Below are positions 26,228 through 28,661 of a DNA stretch of 64,000 bases, piece after piece. Origin of the DNA: Spirochaetales bacterium. Lineage in GTDB: Bacteria; Spirochaetota; Spirochaetia; Sphaerochaetales; Sphaerochaetaceae. The notes below the pieces were generated by a model. That model was not told where the DNA came from. It searched no databases and saw only the letters and a list, made by a program, of their open reading frames with translations. The position numbers and the translations under genes were made by a program. The number at the start of each line of letters is the position of its first letter. Position 1 is the first letter of the stretch. The stretch lies in assembly GCA_017614375.1 (NCBI GenBank), contig JAGABZ010000002.1:1-64000 (forward strand). Reading direction: 5' to 3'.

Positions 26228-27250
26228 ATGAAAAAGGTTGTTCTTGCCGTATTGATGCTCACTTTCGCCCTCTTTGCCCTGACCGCCGCCGGCTCGCCGG
26301 AAAACAAGAGCGGGGAAAAGACCTACCTCATAGGTGTGTCGAAAATCATGGCCCATCCCGCACTGGACCAGATCGAACAGGGAATCCAGGATTACCTGGC
26401 CACCACCGACCTCAAGGTCACCTATGATTTTCAGAACTGCAACGGAGACGTCGGTACCGCCGCCCTGATTGCCCAGTTGTTCAAGGAAAAGAACGCCGAC
26501 ATCGTCGTAGGAATCGCCACTCCTCCGGCCCAGGCCCTGGCCAACACATTCGGCGGCAGTTCCGTTCCGGTTGTCTTCAGCGCAATCAGCGACCCCGTCG
26601 CGGCCGGATTCACCGACGCGCACAACAAATCCCTGATGCCCAACATCTGCGGAATCTCCGACAAGAACCCGATTAAAGTCCAGCTGGACACCTTCATCAA
26701 GGCCACAGGGGTCAAGACAATCGGCATGGTCTATTGCTCCGGCGAAGCCAACGGTGTCTCCCAGATGGAAGAAGCCGGCCAGGCCTGTGCCGAACTCGGC
26801 GTTGAACTGGTGACCGCCGCAGTCTCCAACTCCGCCGAAGTCATGACCGCGCTGCTTTCAATCATCGAAAGAGTTGACGGCGTCTACGTCGCAATCGACA
26901 ACACAGTGGTCAGCGCCATCGCCTCGGTCGATCAGGTCTGCACCCAGTACGCCAAACCGTTGTTCAACACCGACACTACCAGCAGCGAAGGAACCGGATT
27001 CTTCATGTCATGGAGTTTCCGCTACTACACCGTCGGCTACGAGACCGGCCGCCAGATTGAAAAGATCCTCACCGGACAGGCCTCGCCTGAAAGCATCGGC
27101 GCCGTGTACTTCGACAACCCTGCCCAGTTCGAGCTGGTTTTCAACCTCGACAGTGCCGCCCGTCTCGGTCTGACCATCCCGGACGACATCCTCAAGAGTG
27201 CCACGTTCGTGGTCAAAGACGGCAAGACAATCGACAATCCGTACAAATAA
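26228..27250 (+). CDS. ABC transporter substrate-binding protein (TrpX/YtlA-like)
   Basis: A 340-residue periplasmic binding protein with a signal peptide of about 20 residues ending ALTAAGS; no lipobox Cys. The body, with LIGVSKIMAHPALDQIEQGIQDYL, ADIVVGIATPPAQALAN and VPVVFSAISDPVAAGF, matches the TrpX/YtlA-type family (Pfam ABC_sub_bind), which binds amino acids or related small molecules. No permease or ATPase gene follows, so the membrane components are elsewhere. A hairpin terminator ends the unit. Confidence 0.88.
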   Translation: MKKVVLAVLMLTFALFALTAAGSPENKSGEKTYLIGVSKIMAHPALDQIEQGIQDYLATTDLKVTYDFQNCNGDVGTAALIAQLFKEKNADIVVGIATPPAQALANTFGGSSVPVVFSAISDPVAAGFTDAHNKSLMPNICGISDKNPIKVQLDTFIKATGVKTIGMVYCSGEANGVSQMEEAGQACAELGVELVTAAVSNSAEVMTALLSIIERVDGVYVAIDNTVVSAIASVDQVCTQYAKPLFNTDTTSSEGTGFFMSWSFRYYTVGYETGRQIEKILTGQASPESIGAVYFDNPAQFELVFNLDSAARLGLTIPDDILKSATFVVKDGKTIDNPYK

Positions 27251-27270
27251 CCTTTCTTCTTCCTCCTCCG

Positions 27271-27300
27271 GCCCGGCGGCTTCCGCCGGGCTTCTTTGTT
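27271..27300 (+). terminator. Terminator after the substrate-binding protein gene
   Basis: GCCCGGCGG/CCGCCGGGC stem with a 3-nt loop followed by TTCTTTGTT. Confidence 0.8.
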
Positions 27301-27343
27301 TCCGTTGCTTGGGATATAATTGTCCTGTCTAAAGGAGGCTCAG

Positions 27344-28321
27344 ATGCCGGACACTTCAAACCTTTCCATCTCCGAAGCCATCCTCAGCGGTCGGTCCTTC
27401 ACCCCGTCGGAGTTCCCGACCTCGGGGTTTGCCGCCCTTTCCGCCGCAGGCTCCATACCCGAGCTCGCGTTCGAGGCTCTGGCCCCCTACTTCGCCGGAG
27501 ACAAACTTTTTTCTCCGCTGGCGGAAATCTGCTGCGAAGCCTTTGACTTCCCCATTCCCATAGCCGAAGTCGCACCGAACTGCAGGGCGCTGGAGCTGTT
27601 CGCCGGTCCGGGTCAGTCATATATCGATTTCGGAGCGCGCTTCATTGTTTCAATCATGCAACGACTGAATCCGGGCGCGGTCCTTACCGCGGAAATCCGC
27701 AAGCCATCCGAGGCCGCTGCCTGGGCCCGGGCCTTGGCCGGAAAGGGGATGACACTCTTCCTGACCGGAGTCAAAGAATGCCCGGGTCTGCCGCAGAATG
27801 TGTCAGTCTGCGACAGCGCTCCCGCAGGAGCAATCTGCGTAGATGAACGCAATACGGCCTTTATCATGGGGCTGAGCGTTCCTTTCATCTACTGCGCCCT
27901 TCATCAGGCAATCAGCGAGGACCGGATCCGTCCCTCCAAGGAAATATTCCTGACCCACTTCGCCCTTCCGGCCTGCAATCAGGCCCTCCAGGCGGCAGTC
28001 TTCTTCGCGAGGGCAATCGGTGCCCCGATCGGCCGGGTTCTGCTCGCCTGCAGAAAAGACCATGGAATAAAGGCTTTTCTTGACGGCAAAGCCCCGGCCC
28101 CCGCTGTTCTGGGCCTGCTTTTGAAGTACTTCTCCGAGCAGGAAGTCAAAGAAACAGTTCTGGCGGGAACCCCGGATGACGAAGCCGTGGGCCAGGCAAT
28201 CCAGAGGGTAACCGAAAAGACCGGCTACTGTCTGAGCAGCCACGGCGCTGTTCTGGAAGCGGCCCGTTTTGCTCTGCTTCCGGTTCACCGGACAGTGCTT
28301 GCCGTCACCGAGCCGCAATAA
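27344..28321 (+). CDS. Threonine-synthase-like protein lacking the PLP lysine
   Basis: A 325-residue protein aligning by eye along the whole of ThrC (about 430-480 residues). Shared features: the N-terminal ELAFEALAPYFAG segment, EAFDFPIPI, ELFAGPGQSYIDFGARF, then a GNFGD-region equivalent (LTHFALPACNQAL) and SSHGAVLEAARFALL near the C-terminus. In active enzymes the third segment ends AFKDFGARF, whose Lys binds PLP; here it is Ile. The ATSGDTG phosphate loop is missing too. Catalysis as a threonine synthase is therefore unlikely. AAAGGAGG precedes ATG 27344. Confidence 0.8.
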   Translation: MPDTSNLSISEAILSGRSFTPSEFPTSGFAALSAAGSIPELAFEALAPYFAGDKLFSPLAEICCEAFDFPIPIAEVAPNCRALELFAGPGQSYIDFGARFIVSIMQRLNPGAVLTAEIRKPSEAAAWARALAGKGMTLFLTGVKECPGLPQNVSVCDSAPAGAICVDERNTAFIMGLSVPFIYCALHQAISEDRIRPSKEIFLTHFALPACNQALQAAVFFARAIGAPIGRVLLACRKDHGIKAFLDGKAPAPAVLGLLLKYFSEQEVKETVLAGTPDDEAVGQAIQRVTEKTGYCLSSHGAVLEAARFALLPVHRTVLAVTEPQ

Positions 28322-28343: not shown

Positions 28344-28371
28344 AAAGGCCGCTGCATCCGCAACGGCCTTT
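28344..28371. terminator. Bidirectional terminator between the ThrC-like gene and rpmB
   Basis: AAGGCCG/CGGCCTT stem (28345-28351 with 28364-28370), flanked by A and T runs on either side, serving both convergent genes. Confidence 0.8.
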
Positions 28372-28391: not shown

Positions 28392-28637
28392 TCACTCTGC
28401 CTTCTGGCTGACGACCTTGTCCACCCTGCCGGCTCTGAGGCAGCGGGCGCATACATGGATGGTCATCGGAGTGCCTTCGACCATGGCCTTCACAGCGATG
28501 ATGTTCGGGCGGAAAACGCGGTTCTTGGTGACGCCGACGTGCTGTCCGACACCACCCTTTTTCTTGGCCTGTCCCTTTCTGGGAACGGTGCAACCGAACT
28601 GAGTACCCTTTCCGCAAATATCACATCTACGTGCCAT
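28392..28637 (-). CDS. rpmB: 50S ribosomal protein L28
   Basis: An 81-residue ribosomal protein: MARRCDICGKG at the N-terminus with CxxC, and a second Cys pair in HVCARCLRAG, so this is the zinc-binding (C+) form. Length and the SNNV-type core (TKNRVFRPN) fit the family. An AAGGTGG site lies before the ATG at 28637. The gene is alone under its own promoter and has a structured leader. Confidence 0.95.
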   Translation of the reverse strand: MARRCDICGKGTQFGCTVPRKGQAKKKGGVGQHVGVTKNRVFRPNIIAVKAMVEGTPMTIHVCARCLRAGRVDKVVSQKAE

Positions 28638-28661
28638 ATCTTCCACCTTGTCGTTGTTGTA

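Follow-up and report, generated by a model that had tools for sequence, protein, structure and literature searches.

A threonine-synthase-derived protein very probably retained by selection as a pseudoenzyme in one genus of the Sphaerochaetaceae

An open reading frame at 27344–28321 (+ strand) of the 64 000-nucleotide stretch of DNA analysed here (the window) raises the question of whether an inherited threonine synthase (ThrC) that has lost its pyridoxal phosphate (PLP) lysine is a gene in decay or a protein with another use and, if the latter, what that use might be. The frame runs uninterrupted, as had been predicted from the letters alone, and encodes a product of 325 residues, referred to below as ThrC′ (gene thrC′). 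The genome to which the window belongs (G000) consists of 17 contigs with a total of 1.54 Mb, at a completeness of 98.4%; its named relatives are recorded as Spirochaetales bacterium and Sphaerochaetaceae bacterium.

A Pfam search of the ThrC′ protein gave no match up to E = 10. In NCBIfam the sole relevant match was the threonine synthase model TIGR00260 (E = 0.0011, 18.2 bits), which lies below the curated threshold of that model (167.1 bits), and the rest consisted of one chance-level match. A profile built from the three ThrC′ proteins of the genus matched Escherichia coli ThrC (PDB entry 1vb3) with E = 2.8e-12, and because of these two matches the similarity between the ThrC′ and ThrC sequences is judged not to be due to chance. 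With a ThrC of the family as the query, tblastn located the gene in the window at E = 1.2e-23. Residues 1–116 align closely with the family's ThrC of about 425 residues (SIPELAFEALAPYFAGD, LELFAGPGQSYIDFGARF). The claim that the protein follows ThrC from end to end holds strongly over this part but fails beyond it. ThrC′ has lost five residues around DGGL, the greater part of the small PLP domain, the loop TLANAMDVG and some 50 residues at the C-terminus, which leaves it about 100 residues, or roughly a quarter of the length, shorter than ThrC. In the alignment Ile94 (codon 27623–27625, + strand) stands opposite the PLP lysine of ThrC, GPGQSYIDFGARF corresponding to GPTAAFKDFGARF; SGDTG and SGNVG are replaced. 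The replacement of lysine by isoleucine and the missing SGDTG loop had both been predicted and are borne out by this alignment, in which SGNVG and TLANAMDVG are gone as well.

The signals around the gene were also described in the original prediction. A perfect −10 hexamer, TATAAT, can be read at 27315–27320 (+ strand) and is a candidate promoter element, but no good −35 accompanies it and the promoter scan gave no + strand promoter there, so that the promoter-like region stands in respect of the hexamer only. The ribosome-binding site is present as AAAGGAGG at 27331–27338 (+ strand), 5 bases before the ATG. The terminator reappears in the terminator scan as a terminator-like hairpin at 28344–28371 (− strand), between thrC′ and the convergent rpmB; another at 27270–27292 (+ strand) belongs to the upstream gene and sets that gene apart from thrC′. 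The upstream gene itself (26228–27250, + strand), directly adjacent, codes for a TrpX-like ABC substrate-binding protein (NF041285, 227 bits, below the cut-off of 390; Pfam ABC_sub_bind, above its cut-off). The rpmB gene (28392–28646, − strand; ribosomal protein L28) scores 66.1 bits against TIGR00009, for which the cut-off is 48.3.

The position beside rpmB bears on the origin of the gene. The order rpmB–thrA–thrC was found by tblastn in all five of the sampled other genera of the family, and rpmB, thrA′ and thrC′ stand in this order in the two other members of the genus, G023 (L034, also L081) and G024 (L035, also L082); in the window thrC′ adjoins rpmB, which serves as the syntenic anchor of the ancestral arrangement. 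Since this synteny is combined with the place of thrC′ beside rpmB, ThrC′ is, on gene order, the positional orthologue of the family's inherited ThrC and no paralogue from elsewhere. Horizontal or phage origin was considered and rejected: neither a viral-contig scan with the ThrC′ profile nor PHROGs gave a relative, and next to rpmB thrC′ occupies the place that thrA–thrC have in the family.

The family search covered 139 genomes (the order-level search comprised as many), of which 111 gave a match to the ThrC′ protein. Apart from the window's genome, matches over most of the length occurred only in the two other genus members (46 and 56% identity), so the conserved copies that the original prediction had proposed to look for exist in both. 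The remaining family matches covered mainly residues 1–140 and lay in frames mostly of ThrC length. In a draw of 392 genomes from the phylum, scores far above the ThrC level (598–607 bits versus at most 107) were confined to G000 and G023; G024 was not among the matches of that draw, presumably because it was not drawn. A scan of genome contigs with two narrow peptide patterns, which distant forms could escape, returned just the two known orthologues. In another genus (G036, contig C9, 9930–10469) the window protein had a weak match (27%) interrupted by seven in-frame stops, possibly a decaying ThrC copy or a chance match.

The three ThrC′ proteins have deletions in common, their frame is open in all three genomes, and in the tree they form one clade (support 100/100) whose stem measures 1.71 changes per column and whose exact neighbour is uncertain owing to long branches. 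A single origin of the degenerate form in the genus is what these sequences show. An assembly or sequencing error was rejected as an explanation, given that three separate genomes have the deletions in common.

None of the three ThrC′ proteins has kept the PLP lysine, which is replaced by Ile, Ser and Ala, while it is retained (FKDFGAR) in all 29 ThrC proteins examined from other genera of the family. This count was drawn from the 111 genomes with a match and comprises open frames of at least 250 residues matching xDFGAR in the fetched loci (32 distinct proteins, three from the genus and 29 others), leaving aside unfetched loci, a frame of 127 residues (L027) and any ThrC without DFGAR. The SGDTG and (S/T)GNxG loops are absent from all three proteins. 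No lysine is invariant among them, and relocation of the PLP lysine is for that reason unlikely. Descent from ThrC together with loss of the PLP site in the alignment upholds the predicted class, a ThrC-derived pseudoenzyme, and ThrC′ would not be expected to catalyse the ThrC reaction. It might still bind PLP or phosphohomoserine without catalysis and act as a metabolite sensor, for which the retention of D95-F-G-A-R-F beside the lysine site and of N170 in all three proteins could be cited. The SGNxG loop of ThrC holds the PLP phosphate. With this loop and SGDTG gone, no invariant lysine and the small domain mostly deleted, such a sensor is very improbable, and the phospho-ligand sensor suggested originally is unlikely at the old site, which is no longer there.

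Whether the gene is kept by selection does not follow from an intact frame, as the original prediction had supposed, but comparison with the relatives bears the claim out. The three proteins are 47, 52 and 57% identical in pairs, and the nucleotide identities are 0.53–0.59. Pairwise pN was 0.30–0.37 and pS 0.74–0.78, at which synonymous sites are saturated, giving pN/pS of 0.41–0.47; on the columns common to all three the ratio was 0.41–0.46 (bootstrap 0.34–0.54). For comparison, hom and lysC gave 0.16–0.27, rpmB 0.12–0.15 and intact ThrC 0.32–0.54. In a codon model on the three-species tree, in which every branch postdates the ancestor of the genus, letting ω vary freely improved on ω = 1 by 124.8 log units (285 codons); the estimate of ω itself (0.02–0.05) is not reliable, one branch being at the ceiling. 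When neutral drift was simulated along one lineage to 80% nucleotide identity, the three thrC′ genes retained an open frame in 22, 14 and 32 of 1000 runs, and when 0.7 neutral changes per site separated two copies the identity was at most 34% and in none of 300 pairs were both copies open. The strongest constraint is found at residues 30–100 (46 of 71 columns invariant, pN/pS 0.20–0.26), a stretch that includes residues 40–100 (27461–27643, + strand), followed by residues 161–191 (16 of 31 columns invariant, pN/pS 0.30–0.33). The argument is built on three sequences with saturated synonymous sites and assumes that loss of the ThrC site predates the split of the species, as the common deletions and the supported single clade lead us to believe. 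On this comparison ThrC′ is under purifying selection and neutral evolution, the outcome named beforehand as the one that would count against the prediction, is rejected by the codon model and the simulations.

A relic in slow decay whose frame is open by luck would account for the very long stem, for the shrinking length (290 residues in G024, where a piece near the C-terminus is lost) and for the weaker constraint at residues 101–160 and the C-terminus (pN/pS 0.45–0.74). Such a relic is nevertheless improbable: ω = 1 is rejected, and copies drifting neutrally over 0.7 changes per site would be no more than 34% identical and full of stops, against 47–57% identity and not one stop in any of the three genomes. 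ThrC′ is thus very probably a selected, genus-specific pseudoenzyme derived from ThrC and no decaying gene.

Hom, LysC, Asd and an intact ThrC of the long type are present in all three genus genomes. The second, intact thrC that had been named as something to look for lies on contig C6 of the window's genome (68038–69078; L002, L093); its product scores 245 bits, above the model cut-off, contains the lysine, SGDTG and TGNFG, and adjoins a ThrH (TIGR02137, 245.5 bits). In G000 hom (C13:185928), lysC (C13:186659) and asd are grouped together. In G023 asd, lysC and hom are divergent from the intact long-type thrC plus thrB, and the G024 contig, as far as it extends, shows asd, lysC and hom with a divergent thrC. 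Identity of the long ThrC of G000 is 42–50% to its counterparts in G023 and G024 and 61% to that of G084, from another genus; because it is closer to G084 than to its own genus, the window's lineage seems to have exchanged the replacement ThrC as well, a change through which ThrC′ was kept. It was also noted that thrB is missing from the hom–lysC–asd site of G000, where G023 carries it, which together with the closer G084 ThrC suggests a second swap of threonine enzymes in the G000 lineage.

The gene accompanying thrC′ in two of the three genus genomes, as an operon-like pair, is thrA′. Its product in G023 and G024 has 705 residues (803–824 in the open frames of family ThrA), and identity is 62.5% between the two proteins and 28–34% between them and family ThrA. 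The homoserine dehydrogenase part has kept GxGxxG and DLSGxDxxRK, motifs of that enzyme, with Glu replaced by Asp directly before DLSGxDxxRK in G023; the kinase part is cut down. As thrA′ is as strongly diverged as thrC′, the sequences indicate that the two diverged together. In the window's genome thrA′ is absent, and tblastn of the window for a remnant of thrA found none. Outside the genus, the kinase part of ThrA was observed to lack KFGG and GRxGSD, motifs of aspartate kinase, in all five of the other genera inspected (L036, L037, L038, L039 and L040), and KFGGSS was present in four of the five separate LysC proteins of the family that were checked. It may be that the 'bifunctional' ThrA of this family combines a homoserine dehydrogenase with a pseudokinase domain.

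What ThrC′ does can be stated only with reserve. The best explanation as a whole, which we put somewhat short of an even chance, is that of a repurposed inherited ThrC that is non-catalytic and acts as a partner or regulatory subunit. The genus's own threonine synthase would have passed its catalytic job to other threonine synthases and would have become a PLP-free, non-catalytic protein retained by selection, its ThrC-derived body docking on an enzyme of the aspartate–homoserine–threonine branch, which it might tune or scaffold. Its original partner would have been the co-encoded, co-diverged ThrA′ and, in the window's species after the loss of ThrA′, the partner might be Hom, LysC, Asd or the intact ThrC. 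That ThrC′ works by binding a partner enzyme is the likeliest mechanism but a tentative proposal, put a little below an even chance, in which mechanism and partner are guesses; it is prompted by the joint divergence of thrA′ and thrC′ and by a precedent in plants, TSB-like (PMC12727527). The loss in the window's genome of thrA′, the sole partner that gene order suggests, is the main fact against ThrA′ in this role and speaks against the partner model.

ThrC′ might instead be a new PLP-independent enzyme or small-molecule binder in the ThrC scaffold, unrelated to threonine synthesis; in favour of this, it has outlived both thrA′ and, in the window's lineage, the exchange of the intact ThrC. Conservation in at least 93% of the 29 ThrC rows was found for 183 columns (two viral-contig rows being left out of the comparison with the three ThrC′); all three ThrC′ keep 45 of these, in 16 they agree on a different residue, and the remaining 122 are lost or variable. 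In total, there are 54 positions at which the three ThrC′ have one residue in common where ThrC has another or varies; these include S22, E23, E65, D68, N79, C80, E123, R169, S198, E200, R223, H240 and E270. Such positions likewise speak for this reading, but three sequences cannot tell new constraint from common ancestry, and the Pfam and NCBIfam searches showed no known catalytic motif. This reading is accordingly regarded as unlikely.

Pseudoenzymes are a known kind of protein; one derived from ThrC was not found in the open-access literature, nor was one with so much of the site removed found described there, and published examples of a selected pseudoenzyme with PLP fold type II seem to be few. 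PDX1.2 of Arabidopsis is reportedly an inactive paralogue beside active ones in a metabolic pathway, as is the case with ThrC′, but is said to differ in fold and pathway. Closer to ThrC′ is TSB-like, a tryptophan-synthase-β-like pseudoenzyme of eudicot plants with the PLP fold type of ThrC, which is reported to activate its partner TSA and, with two key residues changed, to have kept the complex with it (PMC12727527). Both would be non-catalytic relatives of a PLP fold type II synthase beside a working copy; they differ in that most of the site is gone from ThrC′ and that TSB-like is complexed with TSA, whereas the partner of ThrC′ is only postulated (PMC12727527).

It is conceivable, if unlikely on balance, that the whole operon was repurposed as a unit, thrA (its kinase already degenerate) and thrC having co-evolved after other enzymes took over threonine synthesis; the product would be a module of homoserine dehydrogenase and PLP-free pseudo-synthase, reduced to the pseudo-synthase alone in the window's species. 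ThrC′ would then be the first of a family of PLP-free regulators with the threonine synthase fold, a bacterial counterpart of TSB-like. Because a single syntenic site allows comparison of the states before and after, of the enzymes that took over and of three diverged copies, ThrC′ offers a tractable case of how an enzyme without its old job gains another.

ThrC′ is unlike the E. coli type of ThrC (TIGR00260; PDB entries 1vb3 and 4f4f) in its missing PLP lysine, SGDTG and SGNxG, its reduced length and its 18 bits against the cut-off of 167; it is like this type in descent, in its position after rpmB(–thrA) and in the 116 N-terminal residues. A fold model from the three ThrC′ sequences alone reached a pLDDT of 54.5, with good confidence only at about 91–170. 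When the alignment included two real ThrC rows, the best model had a pLDDT of 76 and a pTM of 0.78 (50–61 for the pLDDT of the other four models). Although no proof, this predicted model, built with the two ThrC rows, resembles 1vb3 in overall fold (Z = 21.6, 301 residues, 4.2 Å) and is consistent with a trimmed ThrC fold.
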